Below are positions 21,612 to 29,440 of a stretch of DNA of 49,993 nucleotides, one piece after another. The translations under genes and the position numbers were made by a program. Numbering within the stretch: the first letter of the stretch is position 1; each line of letters opens with the position of its first letter. Source of the DNA: an uncultured Desulfovibrio sp. (GTDB lineage: Bacteria > Desulfobacterota > Desulfovibrionia > Desulfovibrionales > Desulfovibrionaceae); contig UQJT01000016.1 in NCBI GenBank assembly GCA_900541395.1, positions 1 through 49,993 of the forward strand. The letters run 5' to 3'. The notes under the pieces were generated by a model. It worked only from the letters and a program-made list of their open reading frames with translations. It had not been told where the DNA came from and ran no database searches.

Positions 21612-21850
21612 AGCCGGGGCGCGGTCGCAGGAGCACATTGCGGCGTCGGGCTCGCCGCTTGTCATGCCGTTCTCGGTCGGTCTTCCCATGTCGGGCGGTC
21701 GAGCGCCGTCCGACATTTTGTTCGGGTGCGGTCTCTACCATGAGGAATTGTTTAAAAAAGCCGTGATAGGTTGTGCGGAACCGGCATTGCCGGAATCAAA
21801 AAGTATTCCGGCAGTGCCTCCCCCTTGTTTCTTTATCAGGAGGACCGCAC
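21612..21850 (+). promoter_or_regulatory. Recombinase leader: terminator-like hairpins and possible Shine-Dalgarno trap
   Basis: After rqcH, ATGTCGG...CCGACAT at about 21689-21717 forms a hairpin. Closer to the recombinase, 21783-21796 pairs with 21805-21818 over 14 bp (one G-U) with loop CAAAAAGT. Immediately after it, CCTCC (21817-21821) can pair with the ribosome-binding site GGAGG (21839-21843) of the recombinase gene. Either the long hairpin or the CCTCC-GGAGG pairing can form fully, since they share two bases. Confidence 0.55.
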
Positions 21851-22891
21851 ATGGCTCGTCGCTATCCGGCAATTCGTTCAGCACTTTCTTCCCCCGCGCG
21901 GGCGGAAGATTGCGGCAGGCGCGCGAAGCCTGCCGCCGTGAAACTCGACGCCTTTATCTGGGACGACTACTTGCCGCATATCCGCTTGGACAAGCGGAGC
22001 TGGCGCGTGGATGAGCGCATTGCGCGTCAGTACCTGTCCGCGGCGTTCGGGGCCCGGCGGCTTGCCGACATACAACGCCACGAAGTGGAAAACTGGTTGC
22101 GCGGCCTGTCGTCCGGCGGCCTGTGCGCGGCCACCTGCAACCGCATTCTGGCGGTCTTCAAGGCAATCTGTTCTCTGGCCGAAATACGCGGCGTCCTACC
22201 CGTCGGGCAATCTCCGTGCACGGGCGTCTCTTCCTTTAAAATCCACGCGCAGCGGGAGCGCTATCTCACGCGGGACGAGGCTTGGCGGCTCATGCGGGCG
22301 CTGGAAAAAAGCGACCGTGCGGAAGCCCTTGCTCTCCGTCTGCTTCTGCTCACCGGCGCGCGCAAGAGCGAAGTCCTCAAGGCTCGATGGGAACATATCC
22401 GTCTGGATTTGCGGCTGCTTATCGTGCCGCTGTCCAAGTCGGGCAAGCCGCGCCATATTCCGCTGTCCGACGAAGCCATACGGATTATCCGCGTCATTCC
22501 GCGCGTGCCCGGCTGTCCGTGGCTGTTTCCGGGGCATGCGCCGGGAAAACCGTTATCCGATATATACCTCTTCTGGAACGGAGTGCGGCGGGGGCTGGGC
22601 ATTGCCGACGTGCGCATCCATGATTTGCGGCATAGCTTCGCCTCGTTTCTGGTCAACGCCGGCCACTCGCTCTACGAGGTGCAAAAACTGCTTGGACACA
22701 GCGATCCCCGCACGACCATGCGTTACGCGCATCTGGGACAGGAGGCGCTGGTGGCCGCGGCGGAAACCGTGAGCGCTTTTCTTGTCCGACCCGACAAGGA
22801 ATGCGCCCGGGAAAAACGCGGCGGAAGTGTCGATTCTTCTCCGTCGCGCGACGGGAGTGAGGACGGCCGCGCAAGTTCGGCAAGTCTATAA
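21851..22891 (+). CDS. Tyrosine recombinase (phage-integrase family)
   Basis: The 346-residue protein has an N-terminal SAM-like core-binding domain (about 30-125) and a complete catalytic domain: R171 (TGARKSEVL), K196 (SKSGK), H257 and R260 (HDLRHSFAS), H283 (LGHSD) and nucleophile Y292 (RYAHL). So it should be active in DNA cleavage and strand exchange. The ATG at 21851 has GGAGG 7 nt upstream. No tRNA, prophage gene or excisionase is nearby; the only neighbour is the autotransporter, reached across a 349-bp gap that carries a 20-bp inverted repeat. This points to a site-specific invertase for that gap rather than an island integrase. The C-terminal ~45 residues are low-complexity. Confidence 0.93.
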   Translation: MARRYPAIRSALSSPARAEDCGRRAKPAAVKLDAFIWDDYLPHIRLDKRSWRVDERIARQYLSAAFGARRLADIQRHEVENWLRGLSSGGLCAATCNRILAVFKAICSLAEIRGVLPVGQSPCTGVSSFKIHAQRERYLTRDEAWRLMRALEKSDRAEALALRLLLLTGARKSEVLKARWEHIRLDLRLLIVPLSKSGKPRHIPLSDEAIRIIRVIPRVPGCPWLFPGHAPGKPLSDIYLFWNGVRRGLGIADVRIHDLRHSFASFLVNAGHSLYEVQKLLGHSDPRTTMRYAHLGQEALVAAAETVSAFLVRPDKECAREKRGGSVDSSPSRDGSEDGRASSASL

Positions 22892-22994
22892 TGACTGGAA
22901 ATAAAAAATAGAAAAAATAAGAAAGAACGCATTGAATATGTAGGGCTGTTTCAAGCCAGGAATATTCCCTTTCAGCCGCGAAGAGAGGGTTCAT

Positions 22995-23014
22995 CGACAG
23001 ATGTACTGTCAATG
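22995..23014 (+). repeat. Left inverted repeat of the candidate switch (IRL)
   Basis: Sequence CGACAGATGTACTGTCAATG. The reverse complement of 23157-23176 is identical except for T versus G at position 15. It is centred in a near-perfect 29-bp dyad. Confidence 0.85.
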
Positions 23015-23070
23015 AACTTTGAAAAGACAATACGCTTAGCAGCCGTGATTTGCAATGGCGTCCTTCGGAA

Positions 23071-23099
23071 AAAATATTGATCAACTTGTTTTTTGTCAA
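23071..23099 (-). promoter_or_regulatory. Leftward promoter inside the invertible segment
   Basis: On the minus strand TTGACA (23099-23094), 17 bases, TATTTT (23076-23071): 10 of 12 consensus. It is the best promoter match in the gap but reads toward the recombinase gene. Inverting the segment would aim it at the autotransporter. Confidence 0.6.
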
Positions 23100-23113
23100 A
23101 AAATTATTATAAA
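23086..23113 (+). promoter_or_regulatory. Weaker rightward promoter candidate in the invertible segment
   Basis: TTGTTT (23086-23091), 16 bases, TATAAA (23108-23113): 8 of 12 consensus. It would read into the autotransporter in the present orientation, so the sequenced state may be low rather than fully off. Confidence 0.35.
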
Positions 23114-23156
23114 TTCAGCTTATTATGTTTTTCTTAAGGTTTTGTCAGACGCCAAA

Positions 23157-23176
23157 CATTGCCAGTACATCTGTCG
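23157..23176 (-). repeat. Right inverted repeat of the candidate switch (IRR)
   Basis: Sequence CATTGCCAGTACATCTGTCG, the inverted partner of 22995-23014 (19 of 20). It ends 64 bases before the autotransporter start codon. Confidence 0.85.
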
Positions 23177-23240
23177 GTACATCATGGGGAGCTCGGCTCC
23201 ACAGAATTTTTGGGGGCCGCAGGCCCCGGGAGGAGTGTCT

Positions 23241-26200
23241 ATGCTTACGAAAGGCGCTATCGGCAATCTTGTCAACAGGTATCGAGCCGTGCTCAGAAAA
23301 TGCCGTCTGCTCAATACCTTCGGCTCGCTGGCCGTGGCGGGCGCGCTGGTTCTGGGCGGCGCGGGGGCGGCCGCGGCGGCCGTAAATTGGTCCGAGGGAG
23401 CGGACGTGCGGATTACCGCCGTGGATACTGATACAGTCTCTGGCGGGCACCGTCTCAACAGTCTTTCTGTTGAGGGCGGCAGCCTTGCTTACACCGGCAC
23501 GCCCGGGGGTGGTGAAGGACAGCTTTTCATCAGGGAATTTCTGAATATCAGCGGCGGCGAGCTCTCCGTCAACCAAGCCGCACACGCGGGCATTCAGGGC
23601 GCTGTCGACGACACGGCCGATTATACAGCCATTTTCAACATGAGCGGCGGAAAGCTGTCGATTAGCGGCAGCCAGGTGCAGATGAAGGATGTGAACATCA
23701 GCGGCGGCGAGGTCAGCGTCTCCGGCATAGCGGGCAAGGACGCCAGCCCGAACTGGAATGACGGGGCCATGCTGGGTTCGGTGGACGGCACGTTTGCCCT
23801 GTCCGGCGACGGCAAGATCACGCTGGGGAATAACGCCCAGCTTTTCGCGCCCGAGTTCAACCTGAATGGCGGCACCATTTCCATGAGCGCTTCGGACAAT
23901 CCTGCGCTTGTCCGCACCTATGGCGAAAATGGCGCGCTGAACCTGACCGGCGCGGCCATTGAGGTTGACGGTCAAGGCATCCTGGCCGCGAACAACCTGA
24001 ACATCAGCGGCGGCAATCTGGGTGTGGGCGAAGATGGCAACTTGGTCATGGGCGTTACCGGTTTTAAGCAGGGGATGTCTGTGTCCGAGGCGTTGAAGAG
24101 CTCCTCCGAGGCCACGGTCACCCAGACCGGCGGCACGGTGAATGTGGCCGGACGTATGGATCTGGGCGGCACGCTGAACATACAAGGCGGCGAGTTCACC
24201 GTGAGGAAGGAGGGCAAGGTCTTCGTTCTTCAGGATGCAGCGGACGCGCCTGCATGGGGTAAAAATTCCGCCATCAACATGCAGGGCGGCGTGCTGAACG
24301 TCGACGGCTATGCCGAGGCATCGCAATTGTCCATCACCGGCGGCACCACCAATATCATCGGCGATGGAAACGAGTGGCATCAAACCGGCCTGGGCGGCTA
24401 TAGCCAGACGTGGGATGTCGAGACAGGCGCATGGGTAGCGTCGGGCTCGCCCACCATGGTCAGCGGTCCCGATACCGTGGTCAACATTGAGAACGGCAAC
24501 CTCTTCGGCGGAGTAGCCGTCAAGGGTGCCGAGGGCGGACTCACCATCACAGACGGCGCTATCGTCAACCTTTCCGGCGACTCGCTGAATCGGGCGGGCA
24601 TGCTCTTTGCCTCCGACGGCCAGACGCTGAACATCGCCCGAGGTGCTTCCGTCAATGTGGCGGAAGGGCAGCACGGCGTCTTCAATGCCGCGACGACCAC
24701 AATCGGCAAGGACGCCACGGTCGACACCGCCGGTACTTTGATCATGGCGAAAGCATCGAAGGCGGCTGCTCCCGACCTCTCGGCTGCCGTCGTCACTGTG
24801 GAGGACGGCGGCACAATGCGCGTGACGGGCAAGGGCTATATTGATCTGGGCGCCAAGGGCGGCTCGTCCAGCTTGACCTTTGCGGACGGCTCTCTCTTTG
24901 ACGTCAGCGCCGCCTCCGTCAGCAACGGCAATACCGCCATCAGAAACGCAACCGAAAACGCGGTGCATGTCGCCGAGAACGCGAAATTGCGCGTCAGCGG
25001 GGCCAAGGCGGGCGAAAGCTACACGCTGGCCTCAAACAGCATCGACATACAGGGCTCCGGTTGGCAGGGCGACAATCTGCTCAGCAGCACCTCGTTCCTT
25101 GGCCTTGATTTCGATCCCGTCACCGGAACATTCACGGCCAAGGCCAAATCCGCCGCCGAGGCCATGCCCGAACTGAACGGCGGGCTGGGCAATCTGGTTT
25201 CGGGCATGTACGCGGCCGGCCTCAACGACGCGGATGCGATCGAAAACGGCCGTCGCTTCCTGTCCCGCGTCACGGATGTCAACTACATCGCGGACGCCGG
25301 GCAGCAGGTCACGAACCTGGAAAGCGCGGCCCGGATGGGCCTTGTCCTTGCCCCGCACATGACCTGGGCCGCTCATGACGCGGCGGGCGCGGCCGTCGCC
25401 CGGCGCGCCGCGTTGGCGCAGCCCGAAGGAAGCGGCTTCCGGTCCATGTCCGCCGACGGGACCGACTTCGGCATGTGGGTCATGCCCCTCTATCAGAACT
25501 GGAATGCCGACGGGCTGGACAACGGCAGCCGCGATCTGGACGTCAGCGCCAATCTGGGCGGCGTGGCCCTGGGGGCGGATTACACCTTCGCCGACAATGT
25601 CCGCGCGGGGCTGTCGTTCCATGTCGGCGGCGGTCACGCCAAGGGAGAGGGCGAAATCAACAAGACCGCCGACGACTTCAATTTCTGGGGTGTCGGAGCT
25701 TACGCCGGTTGGGCGCGGAGCAGTTTCGGGCTTGCCGCGGACTTGAGCGTCACCGGAGCGAGCCACGACCTCGAGCAGGACCTGCCCGTCTCTCTGGGCA
25801 TGGGCAATCTCAAAAGCGACATCGATTCCTGGGCGCTGGGCGCCGGTCTGCGCGGCGAGTATCGGTTTGAAACCAACGGCCTGAACATCGTGCCGCACGC
25901 GAGCGTGCGTTATACCCTCCTCAACACCGGCAGCTACAAGGGGGTAGCCGACGGGGGCATGGTGCTGGAAGGCGACGCCATGCGCCAGAACGTCTGGACC
26001 TTCCCGGTGGGCGTGGCGCTTTCAAAGGACTTCGATACGGCAGGCGGCTGGAGCGTGCGGCCCTCGCTTGATCTGGGCGTGGTCGCCGCCGCCGGCGACG
26101 TCAAGGCGAAGGGCGACGTGAGCTTTGCCGGGGTGAAGGGCAAGGCCGCCCTGGAGACCCAGGTGCTGGACCGCGTCAGCTTTGCGGGTCAGGCGGGAGT

Positions 26201-26306
26201 GGAACTGGGCAAGGACAAGCTCAGCTTCGGCCTCAACTACAATGTGCGGGCGGGCGAACGCAACACGGCGCACGGCGTGTTCGGCACGTTCCGCTATACG
26301 TTCTGA
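23241..26306 (+). CDS. Autotransporter (type Va) with beta-helix passenger
   Basis: The 1021-residue protein has an extended signal sequence (about 1-50, ending AGAAAAA), a long passenger and a C-terminal autotransporter beta-barrel of about 270 residues that ends in the classic aromatic residue (FRYTF). The passenger is built of repeated turns with the motif N-[IM]-x-GG-x-[LV]-x-V (NISGGELSV, NMSGGKLSI, NISGGEVSV, NISGGNLGV, NMQGGVLNV), as in AIDA/pertactin-like beta-helices used for adhesion. The ATG at 23241 has AGGAG upstream; the frame is open to 23055 only across the AT-rich switch. No protease motif is seen. The link with the adjacent recombinase and inverted repeats suggests phase-variable display. 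Confidence 0.92.
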   Translation: MLTKGAIGNLVNRYRAVLRKCRLLNTFGSLAVAGALVLGGAGAAAAAVNWSEGADVRITAVDTDTVSGGHRLNSLSVEGGSLAYTGTPGGGEGQLFIREFLNISGGELSVNQAAHAGIQGAVDDTADYTAIFNMSGGKLSISGSQVQMKDVNISGGEVSVSGIAGKDASPNWNDGAMLGSVDGTFALSGDGKITLGNNAQLFAPEFNLNGGTISMSASDNPALVRTYGENGALNLTGAAIEVDGQGILAANNLNISGGNLGVGEDGNLVMGVTGFKQGMSVSEALKSSSEATVTQTGGTVNVAGRMDLGGTLNIQGGEFTVRKEGKVFVLQDAADAPAWGKNSAINMQGGVLNVDGYAEASQLSITGGTTNIIGDGNEWHQTGLGGYSQTWDVETGAWVASGSPTMVSGPDTVVNIENGNLFGGVAVKGAEGGLTITDGAIVNLSGDSLNRAGMLFASDGQTLNIARGASVNVAEGQHGVFNAATTTIGKDATVDTAGTLIMAKASKAAAPDLSAAVVTVEDGGTMRVTGKGYIDLGAKGGSSSLTFADGSLFDVSAASVSNGNTAIRNATENAVHVAENAKLRVSGAKAGESYTLASNSIDIQGSGWQGDNLLSSTSFLGLDFDPVTGTFTAKAKSAAEAMPELNGGLGNLVSGMYAAGLNDADAIENGRRFLSRVTDVNYIADAGQQVTNLESAARMGLVLAPHMTWAAHDAAGAAVARRAALAQPEGSGFRSMSADGTDFGMWVMPLYQNWNADGLDNGSRDLDVSANLGGVALGADYTFADNVRAGLSFHVGGGHAKGEGEINKTADDFNFWGVGAYAGWARSSFGLAADLSVTGASHDLEQDLPVSLGMGNLKSDIDSWALGAGLRGEYRFETNGLNIVPHASVRYTLLNTGSYKGVADGGMVLEGDAMRQNVWTFPVGVALSKDFDTAGGWSVRPSLDLGVVAAAGDVKAKGDVSFAGVKGKAALETQVLDRVSFAGQAGVELGKDKLSFGLNYNVRAGERNTAHGVFGTFRYTF

Positions 26307-26447: not shown

Positions 26448-27803
26448 TTATGATGTCCGCCCGGCTTTCGGGGCCAGGGCCGCCACGGCCGCCCAGGCCG
26501 TGGCCACGGCCAGACCGGCCCCGCATTTTTCGCGGAGCCAGTCCTGGTGGGCCAGAATGGTGCCCGCCGCGTACAGGCCCGGCCGGACCACTTTCCCCGT
26601 AATATCCACGGGGCGAAAGGCGTCGTCCACCACAATGCCCGCGCGATCCACGGGATGTCCGGCCGGATCGAACAGATCCGGGCTATGCCATTGTTCACGG
26701 CTTGGAGGTTGGAATACGGGCAGGTCCATGAGGCGTTCGCGCACGCCGTCGCGCTCGGCCCGCAGGCCGCGCCCGATGAAGCGCCCCGTGGCCAGCAGCA
26801 CCTGGCGGGCGTAGACCACGTGTTCCTCGTCTTCCTTAATGCCGTTTTCCTCGGCGTCGGAATTGTCGGGACGGGTATTGGGACCGTCCAGCTCCACGCG
26901 GAAGCCCGCTTCCCCGGCATGGGGACCGTCGGGCAACGGGGTCGGGAGCACGGCGCGCGCCCTGGTCAGGCGGCGGGCGTCCACGCCTTCGGCCTCCAGG
27001 CCGTTTTCCAGCACGGCCTTGAGGCGCATACCCGGCACCGAGGCGGGCAAGGTGGGGATTTCGAAGACGGACACGCCCAGCCGGGCGGCCAGATCGCCTG
27101 TCGCGCCGCCGTCGACCCCGGCGGGCGAGGAGCCCAGCACGGCGGGCAGGCCCACGTGGGTTTCGCCCCGCAACAGGGGGCGGATGGCCTCGGCCAGGGC
27201 GGCGCGATGGGCGGGCAATTCCAGGGCTTGAGCCATGACGCCGGGCAACAGGGGGTGAGGCGCGGGGGCCGGAAAATGCACCCGCGCGGCCCGCAGACCG
27301 GGCCAAGTCCGGCCTGCCACGGCCGCGATCTGAGCGGCGCTGTATTCGCGCAGGCCGTGGAAATCCACCAGCAGAGCGGGGGATTTGGCCGCGGCCGCCT
27401 CCACGCCGGGCCACATGGTGGCGGGAACGGCCCAGGTGCGTTTGAGCCCGCCCGCCGGGGTCAATACCCGACAGGCCGCGTCGCCGTTGTGGCGGTAGGG
27501 AAGGCCGCGTCGTCCCAACCAGTCCAAAAATTCTTCCAGAGCCCGACGGGCTTCGGCGGTTCGCAGCCGGGCGTAGGGATGGAGCGGACGGCCCTCGGCT
27601 TCATCCTGCGGCCGCCGCGCGCGCAGTCGCTCCAGCGCCGCCCACGGGTCCGGCGCGTCATAGACGTCGAACAGGCCGCTGGCGTACACGATTTCGGCCG
27701 TGCCGCCCGCCTGGGTCACGCTCAGGCCGCGCCGGGCCGCGAACAGAGCGGCCGCCGCTCCGGCCAGGCCGCATCCGACCACAAACAGATCGCGGGTTTT
27801 CAT
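26448..27803 (-). CDS. glpB: Anaerobic glycerol-3-phosphate dehydrogenase subunit B
   Basis: The 451-residue protein has an N-terminal dinucleotide fold (VVGCGLAGAAAALFAARRG, about 8-26) and a C-terminal flavin-type segment (GIVVDDAFRPVD, GLYAAGTILAHQDW), as in GlpB. With GlpA it oxidises sn-glycerol-3-phosphate to dihydroxyacetone phosphate in anaerobes. Its ATG overlaps the glpA stop by 4 nt, so the pair is coupled. The usual third gene, glpC, is not downstream; the autotransporter ends there instead. Confidence 0.88.
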   Translation of the reverse strand: MKTRDLFVVGCGLAGAAAALFAARRGLSVTQAGGTAEIVYASGLFDVYDAPDPWAALERLRARRPQDEAEGRPLHPYARLRTAEARRALEEFLDWLGRRGLPYRHNGDAACRVLTPAGGLKRTWAVPATMWPGVEAAAAKSPALLVDFHGLREYSAAQIAAVAGRTWPGLRAARVHFPAPAPHPLLPGVMAQALELPAHRAALAEAIRPLLRGETHVGLPAVLGSSPAGVDGGATGDLAARLGVSVFEIPTLPASVPGMRLKAVLENGLEAEGVDARRLTRARAVLPTPLPDGPHAGEAGFRVELDGPNTRPDNSDAEENGIKEDEEHVVYARQVLLATGRFIGRGLRAERDGVRERLMDLPVFQPPSREQWHSPDLFDPAGHPVDRAGIVVDDAFRPVDITGKVVRPGLYAAGTILAHQDWLREKCGAGLAVATAWAAVAALAPKAGRTS

Positions 27804-29440
27804 CGCTCGCCGTCCTCCGGCACGTCGGCGTCCACGCCGTCCAGCCCCATGAGGCCCAGATACAGGGCTTCTTTCAGTTCGGCCTGGGCCATCTGGTCGC
27901 CCCACAGCACGGGACGTTGGCCGCGCCAGCGCTCGCGCAGAAAGCGCTTCAGACCGGCCGTGCCTCCGGTCCCGGCGGCCAGAGCGCAGTCGTACAGATG
28001 GGCCGTGATCCGCGCTCCGCAAAACGTACCCTGGCACGACCCCTTGCCCACCCGACTGCGGTACGAAACGGCGGGCAGAAGGTCGGCGGCGGGCGTGAGT
28101 CCGTCGTCGTTCCCCCTTTCGTCGTCCGGGTCGGCGCGCCGTTCGGTCAGGCCCCGCAGCAGGCCGTCCACGGCCGACTGGGGCACCACCTCGCACTCGC
28201 ACAACAGATAGTCGTCCGGGCTGTGTTTTTGCCACCAGGCGTATTTGTGGGCCGGGCTGGGATCGCTCCAGGCGGCCAGGTCCGAGGGGGGGATCGCCTC
28301 CTCGGCGGTGCGGCAGACGGCGCTTACGCCCAGGCGGCGGCACAGGGCGTCCGCCGCTCGTTCGGCCATAAGCCGGTAGGTGGTCAGTTTGCCGCCGGTC
28401 AGGGTCATAAGGTTGTCCACGCCGCCCGCCTCCGCCTCCTCGTAAGTCAAAAGGGCGAAGTCGCGCGATGCTTTACGCCCCTCGCCCGAGGCGCCGGCCG
28501 CGCGGACCAGGGGACGAATGCCCGCGTAAGCCCGCCGAAAAGGGGTGGTCGCCAGGCCCGGCAGCAGGGGCAGGGCTTCGCTCAGGTTGGCGTCCACCTC
28601 GGCGATGGTGGGCGTATTGTCGTCGGGGTCGGCCACGGGTACGGAGGTGGTGCCCAGGATGGACACCGAACCTCCGGGGACCAGAATGTCGCCGTCGCCC
28701 GGTCCGCGCAGGCGGTTGATAACGCGTTTGGTCAGTCGGCTCTGCGTGACAAGCAAGGTGCCCTTGGACAGCAGAAGGTCGGCGCGACACCCCGCCAGGG
28801 CGGCCACCCGACCGCTCCAGCCTCCGGCCGCGATGACGAACTGGAGCCCCGCGTAAACCGCCGTTTCGCCCGTTTCGGTATTGCGGACGCGCACGGCGCG
28901 CAGATGTCGGCCGTCGCGTTCAAAGCCCGTTGCTTCATGCCGACGCAGAAAGCGGCCGCCGTGGCGTTGGGCGTCGGCCACGTTTTCCAGAGACAGCATG
29001 AAGGGGTCCACCGAGGCGTCGGGCACCGCGTAAACCGCTGTGATGTCGCGCGCCAGGGCGGGTTCCAGGGCGCGCGCCGCGACCGGGTCCACGGCCCGGC
29101 AGCCCACGCCGGCCGCGGCGCAGTATTCGGGAAAGGCGCTGATATAGTCCGGGTCGTCGCCGGGCACGGCCACGAACAGACCGCCGCAATCATCCACGCA
29201 TTGGGGCAGAATGCGCTTGATGATCGCGCCTTCGCGGGCGCATTCGGCCGCCGCTCGGGGGTCCACCACCGCGTAGCGCGCGCCGCTGTGCAGGAGGCCG
29301 TGGTTGCGGCCCGATGCCCCGGCGTTGACGTCGCCCCGTTCAAGCAGCAGACAATCCACGCCCCGCAGGGCCAGGTCGCGGGCCAGACCCGCGCCGCTTG
29401 CGCCCGCGCCGATAATGATCACCTGATAGGTATGCGCCAT
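27800..29440 (-). CDS. glpA: Anaerobic glycerol-3-phosphate dehydrogenase subunit A
   Basis: The 546-residue flavoprotein has the FAD motif GAGASGAGLARDLALRG (11-27), the long DAO-type catalytic body, and a C-terminal BFD-like [2Fe-2S] domain with CEC near 414-416 and CQGTFC near 465-470. This is the catalytic subunit. The start at 29440 follows a GGGGG tract; longer starts add a hydrophobic stretch that GlpA lacks. It heads the glpAB unit. Confidence 0.92.
   Translation of the reverse strand: MAHTYQVIIIGAGASGAGLARDLALRGVDCLLLERGDVNAGASGRNHGLLHSGARYAVVDPRAAAECAREGAIIKRILPQCVDDCGGLFVAVPGDDPDYISAFPEYCAAAGVGCRAVDPVAARALEPALARDITAVYAVPDASVDPFMLSLENVADAQRHGGRFLRRHEATGFERDGRHLRAVRVRNTETGETAVYAGLQFVIAAGGWSGRVAALAGCRADLLLSKGTLLVTQSRLTKRVINRLRGPGDGDILVPGGSVSILGTTSVPVADPDDNTPTIAEVDANLSEALPLLPGLATTPFRRAYAGIRPLVRAAGASGEGRKASRDFALLTYEEAEAGGVDNLMTLTGGKLTTYRLMAERAADALCRRLGVSAVCRTAEEAIPPSDLAAWSDPSPAHKYAWWQKHSPDDYLLCECEVVPQSAVDGLLRGLTERRADPDDERGNDDGLTPAADLLPAVSYRSRVGKGSCQGTFCGARITAHLYDCALAAGTGGTAGLKRFLRERWRGQRPVLWGDQMAQAELKEALYLGLMGLDGVDADVPEDGER

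Follow-up and report, generated by a model that had tools for sequence, protein, structure and literature searches.

A predicted invertible promoter between a tyrosine recombinase gene and an autotransporter gene in an uncultured Desulfovibrio, one of a family of switches in related bacteria

The DNA separating a tyrosine recombinase gene from an autotransporter gene in a 49,993-nucleotide stretch of an uncultured Desulfovibrio sp. (hereafter the window, meaning the whole of that stretch) is very probably an invertible promoter, or inverton, operated by a tyrosine recombinase and conferring phase variation on the autotransporter. By comparison, the window locus belongs to a family of predicted invertible-promoter switches that stand before different genes in related bacteria. 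As in other invertons, inverted repeats bound a promoter-bearing segment, the promoter being a sequence prediction, and both orientations exist among homologous cassettes. An earlier, sequence-only reading of this DNA had proposed that the recombinase inverts a promoter segment, and this proposal is now strongly supported by conserved site pairs, by overlaps that match within pairs and vary between them, and by the two orientations seen in homologues, including the opposed pair of loci L184 and L198. In the proposed mechanism, the recombinase would bind the 11-bp arms of two 27-bp sites, and strand exchange inside the 5-bp overlaps, which are identical but inverted (ATGTA), would flip positions 23006-23165. 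In the sequenced form, the promoter-like element by the left site reads towards the recombinase, which would leave the autotransporter OFF; after inversion, the element would lie by the right site, some 90-100 bp ahead of the start codon, and read into the autotransporter, turning it ON.

The window locus and its recombination sites

The gene on the left (21851..22891, plus strand) encodes 346 aa from an ATG at 21851, in a frame that extends back to a GTG at 21773. Scanned from the latter position, it matches Phage_integrase (PF00589) with 104.6 bits against a cut-off of 27.1, in keeping with its previous assignment as a tyrosine recombinase. Residues R171, K196, H257, R260, H283 and Y292, which we take to be catalytic in the window recombinase, are invariant across 21 aligned sequences. 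The gene on the right (23241..26306, plus strand, 1021 aa) carries an Autotransporter beta-domain (PF03797, 114.9 bits, E 7e-33) at residues 746-1001, the C-terminal position characteristic of type V secretion, which agrees with the surface protein proposed before. It is preceded by the ribosome-binding-site-like GGGAGGAG (23228..23235, plus strand), and a terminator-like hairpin (23185..23201, plus strand), one of three in 22700-23400 where 1.1 are expected, lies between the right site and the start codon.

The locus had been placed between rqcH and glpB. NFACT domains are present in the former; for the latter, the minus-strand frame 26448-28343 yields an FAD-binding domain and the name is sustained only to that extent. 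A HAD gene and rqcH are adjacent in all six relatives whose sequence covers both (L220-L222, L224-L226), and a seventh stretch, L223, begins at rqcH. None of the seven matches the window autotransporter or the genes to its right, and six of these seven genomes have no recombinase match at 1e-100, the seventh, G001, having one on another contig; consequently, no clean empty site was defined. A comparison of 22892-23240 with plasmids gave no match.

The two repeats reported earlier, at 22995-23014 and 23157-23176, are 19/20 complementary and 142 bp apart. Across 500 dinucleotide shuffles of 22892-23240, no 20-mer inverted repeat exceeds 16/20, a value attained in 12 of them, and a search of the window for GACAGATGTACTGNCAATG at up to three mismatches finds it just at these two places (0.02 expected). 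A 20/20 inverted repeat, its arms separated by 20 bp or more, is present in one other 349-bp tile of the window. Each of the two repeats is the middle of a 27-bp site that had been missed, in which 11-bp arms surround a 5-bp overlap; two arms around a short centre are the build of a tyrosine-recombinase core site. Across the site family, the arm consensus is TTCAT[C/T]GACAG. The left site (22990..23016, TTCATCGACAG-ATGTA-CTGTCAATGAA, overlap 23001-23005) is nearly palindromic and fits the consensus at 22 of 22 arm positions, while the right site (23155..23181, AACATTGCCAG-TACAT-CTGTCGGTACA, overlap 23166-23170) is weak, fitting at 16 of 22 and carrying one core mismatch. The overlaps of the two are identical in inverted order (ATGTA / TACAT). 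Site structure and relatives together predict an invertible segment of 160 bp between the overlaps (23006..23165), and we infer that the window recombinase is the enzyme acting at these sites. The poor fit of the right site would also suit a formerly active switch, now locked at the window by that site or by a silent recombinase; this is improbable, given that the recombinase reading frame is intact and that over 51 pairs the outer right arm also tends to fit less well, averaging 8.92 as against 10.02 of 11 positions.

Site pairs in related genomes

Scoring of 8,000 candidates gave 7,799 proteins that match the recombinase, the best 120 of these matches being 68-82% identical, the window's own excepted. 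A scan of genome contigs places the nearest loci in Mailhella, Desulfovibrio and Avidesulfovibrio records and one Deltaproteobacteria bacterium. Genome searches were centred on the family of G006 (Desulfovibrio sp. ZJ369), presumably the Desulfovibrionaceae, and found a recombinase match at E <= 1e-100 in 32 of 288 family genomes with at most seven candidates scored per genome; in 29 genomes all candidates were scored. At 52 recombinase loci of the Desulfovibrio/Mailhella group, site pairs were sought with matching overlaps required and distances of 60-1500 bp allowed, and an inverted pair stands beside the recombinase gene at 33 of them, the window included. The distance between sites is 158-166 bp in 31 of the 33, the exceptions being L212 (132 bp) and L184 (1160 bp). 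Nineteen loci gave no pair in this search, and at 13 the DNA examined contains none; the pair of L210 is clipped by a contig end, L230 has a diverged repeat at the usual distance and L204 an imperfect one, L205 and L007 extend less than 500 bp beyond the recombinase gene, and the gene of L231 begins 130 bp from the contig start. At both L210 (G008:C90) and L266 (G174:C20), the contig ends about 25 bp or less from a site, as if the assembler had met both orientations.

A pattern search with perfect cores returned 34 pairs in 16 of the 288 family genomes and none with a reversed-pattern control; in 60 further genomes of the order, pattern and control alike returned none. Of the 16 genomes with the pattern, 15 also belong to the 32 in which the recombinase is matched at 1e-100 (hypergeometric P 2e-15, uncorrected for kinship). 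In all 34 distinct perfect-core pairs the left overlap is the reverse complement of the right, a match that the search did not require, and 25 different overlap sequences occur among them; the window pair, with its core mismatch, stands outside the 34, and its overlaps match too. Agreement of overlaps within a pair, with variation between pairs, would be upheld by recombination of the two sites with each other. The idea that overlaps are private within a genome finds no support, as they are shared in 5 of 90 within-genome pairings versus 41 of 1288 between genomes. At 31 more distant recombinase loci, outside the family, one inverted repeat of the kind sought was found, unrelated in sequence.

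The pattern search added 19 pairs located elsewhere than the 33 recombinase-linked ones, bringing inverted pairs to 52 places. It is very improbable that the locus is instead a remnant of phage or island integration with the recombinase as its integrase: PHROGs integrase families do match the protein, the best at 210 bits, but 50 of the 52 pairs are spaced at 145-166 bp (the pattern itself bounding the distance for the 19 added pairs), and the overlaps differ between loci and match within pairs. Matches to phage records are, moreover, below 60% identical in 253 of 254 cases and 30-32% identical among the 20 listed, which do not include the single match in the 60-80% band, and 40 viral contigs are at most 37% identical.

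The invertible switch remains the preferred explanation, and its recombinases probably also act in trans, because 17 of the 19 added pairs have no family-recombinase frame in the fetched stretch, L263 having only part of a frame and L272 a weak, Xer-like frame. The arrangement in G005, G049, G174 and G176, where the sole recombinase found has no adjoining pair and the pairs stand elsewhere, likewise speaks for action in trans. The earlier description of recombinase, switch and autotransporter as a self-contained module fits the window locus and does not extend to these 17 further pairs. Two stand-alone pairs, L258 and L260, lie between divergent genes, such that one inversion could turn one gene off and the other on. 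A second group of recombinases, 35-37% identical, forms the first gene of sugar/glycosyltransferase operons (L215-L218 and L231; G002). In L215-L218, a similar site pair lies upstream of the operon-leading recombinase, and L215 and L218 have a third site, a direct repeat, 45 bp outside the left site.

The promoter-like element and its orientation

The promoter candidate named in the sequence-only reading, TTGACA-17-TATTTT (23071..23099, minus strand), is present, is recovered in a search for sigma-70-like sites and points away from the autotransporter, as had been stated. It is the only such site in 22700-23400, and since 0.5 are expected from shuffles it is weak evidence taken alone. The candidate conserved among relatives is a different one, TTGCAA-N17-TATTGT (23027..23055, minus strand), which points to the recombinase and away from the autotransporter. 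In relatives, a conserved stretch lies inside the segment beside one site and reads, on the reverse strand, TTGCCA-N17-TATTGA, directed out through the near site. The window sequence is the sole match in the window to TTGCMA-N17-TATTGW at one mismatch or fewer (0.33 expected), and by leave-one-out scoring it reaches 13.1 in the sequenced orientation and -6.2 in the opposite one. The TTG-to-TA spacing corresponds to 17 bp between hexamers in 47 of 51 segments, versus 2.4% of shuffles, the exceptions being L194, L195, L254 and L271. We infer that the element is a promoter; that its -10 (TATTGA) lacks the usual final T counts against this. As both promoter candidates point to the 3' end of the recombinase gene, the autotransporter is probably OFF in the sequenced orientation. 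An IHF motif at 8/9 or better occurs at differing positions on the canonical strand of 17 of 32 segments and on the other strand of 7 of 32, compared with 22% of shuffles. Between recombinase and left site, 28 loci hold four plus-strand and seven minus-strand terminators.

Orientation was scored with a leave-one-out PWM from which the recombination sites were excluded, L184 being left out for its length. In 27 of 32 recombinase-linked pairs, window included, the element lies at the left site, pointing away from the gene, and in five (L188, L191, L194, L198 and L201) it lies on the gene side. The called side of L194, L195 and L198 scores below 6.3, the 99.9% shuffle value, and that of L191 equals it; pairwise alignments agree with the calls for L188, L191, L194 and L198. 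The 19 further pairs, unused in training, were scored with shifts of three against the same threshold, itself set with shifts of two, and 17 of them exceed it at one end, L265 and L268 falling short; across the full 19, the element is called at the left end 13 times and at the right end six times. Of 51 pairs, 21 have an A-rich inner half-site, always at the end opposite the element. Most of these pairs have the window orientation, so that the gene-facing ones (L201, L258, L264 and L267) are more telling: as the A-rich half-site is opposite the element even there, the data suggest that inner half-sites travel with the segment and that crossover would take place within the overlap.

The sequence-only reading had named a comparison of the same locus in related genomes as a check for an inverted segment; among homologous cassettes both orientations are found, in the proportion given above and in L184 and L198, which provide the best single case of opposite orientation at the sequence level. 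These two orthologous cassettes have recombinases 91% identical, polyketide synthases 74.5% identical and collinear left flanks, and their conserved segment end adjoins the left site in one cassette but the right site in its counterpart. For that end, none of 1000 shuffles reaches the inverted alignment, versus 839 of 1000 for the collinear one. The case is limited by an IS-like insertion of about 1 kb and by the other end of the L184 segment, which fits neither L198 end (783 and 355 of 1000 shuffles are as good). The insertion, in the L184 segment (G006:C22), carries its IS-like frame on the reverse strand, as judged by eye, and leaves the sites in place. The orientations of L187 and L258 also differ, and their downstream glycosyltransferases are 58% identical.

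It is possible, if unlikely, that the switch is real and that the sequenced orientation is ON, with a promoter reading rightwards from the AT-rich half of the segment and the TTGCCA-N17-TATTGA element serving as an accessory binding site or in some other role. The window segment contains an A-tract and TTATTATAAATTCA (23098..23117), similar AT-rich stretches being visible by eye in many relatives, and -10-like hexamers can be picked out by eye in the AT-rich half. The window orientation is that of the majority, the element likewise faces away from the operon in L215-L218, where the recombinase is the first gene, and all eight autotransporter loci examined (the window, L182, L189, L199, L200, L212, L257 and L262) have the element directed away from the gene, which is the reason for retaining this alternative. 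A mostly OFF population would, however, yield the same majority, and the AT-rich half shows, by eye, no -35 at a fixed distance, whereas the element keeps its 17-bp spacer. The OFF assignment is therefore preferred for the window.

Known systems and the genes downstream

FimB and FimE, tyrosine recombinases which flip a short promoter segment (fimS) before surface genes, offer an analogy only. The window protein, at 346 aa, does not match the FimB/FimE-type DNA invertases, as it scores 25.5 bits, far short of the cut-off of 221, with NCBI's tyrosine-type DNA invertase model (NF007370, length 200). XerC/XerD and archaeal XerA provide its best NCBIfam models (84-96 bits) and are among the best solved chains, and 11-bp arms around a short centre resemble the dif site. 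Membership of XerC/XerD was rejected, with XerD at 89.4 against 329.6 bits and XerC at 84 against 335.15; the scores are far below the equivalog cut-offs of these models (220-335 bits), and the sites of the window family, in contrast, form inverted pairs before genes. Invertons of gut bacteria are alike in that inverted repeats flank a promoter, recombinase genes are close by and the targets are at the cell surface (PMC11892184). The repeat motifs described in passages of that survey come from Bacteroidota, Firmicutes_A and Akkermansia, and Desulfovibrio and Bilophila go unmentioned in its main text (PMC11892184). The window family differs in its 11-5-11 core and in targets that include polyketide synthases and flagellins. 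Searches confined to open-access literature turned up no title on promoter inversion in this bacterial group, which is weak evidence of absence, and the family seems new in the group.

Targets were defined as the longest frame starting no more than 900 bp from the right site or gene end, and Pfam scans covered 29 target proteins and nine proteins beside stand-alone pairs. Many targets start within 200 bp; those of L183, L185, L194, L196, L197, L204 and L230 are 380-640 bp away, which makes their link less sure, and L204, L230 and L231 lack a strict pair. Besides the seven autotransporters named above in addition to the window's, the targets comprise flagellins (L203, L204), a polyketide synthase (L192, to which or to each other L184, L194 and L198 are 59-75% identical), SIS-CBS proteins (L179, L180, L256), a chemoreceptor (L181), glycosyltransferases (L185, L187, L191, L219, L230, L258 and others), DegT aminotransferases (L201, L264, L267), ketoacyl synthase III (L207, and left of L258), a GGDEF protein (L197) and sugar-nucleotide or nucleotidyltransferase enzymes (L190, L216, L218, L231, L269). 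The Pfam scan matched no family to the targets of L188, L193 and L195. A quick tree was built from 45 recombinases, of which 24 carry a label from ten target classes; 9 of its 42 inner branches have strong support. It requires at least 15 changes of class, nine being the minimum possible, and supported neighbours differ in target, as with L200 (autotransporter) and L203 (flagellin). From these changes and differing neighbours, the switch unit seems to have been paired with new genes over time.

Portable cassettes of recombinase, site pair and promoter, together with stand-alone pairs operated in trans, may well amount to a genome-wide phase-variation network in gut-type Desulfovibrio relatives, a reading held with modest confidence. 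Such a network would toggle capsule and sugar genes along with autotransporters, flagellins, chemoreceptors and polyketide synthases, and closely related recombinases precede unrelated genes. A single type of switch ahead of genes for flagellins, polyketide synthases and autotransporters would account for host-facing traits that vary from cell to cell. The defined site consensus makes switches findable by pattern and their orientation scorable in genomes or read sets, and through it the extent of switching becomes directly testable. In L194, frames at about 1398-2699 repeat the peptides SPRPWGT and PHARGEH and resemble a CRISPR array read as protein.
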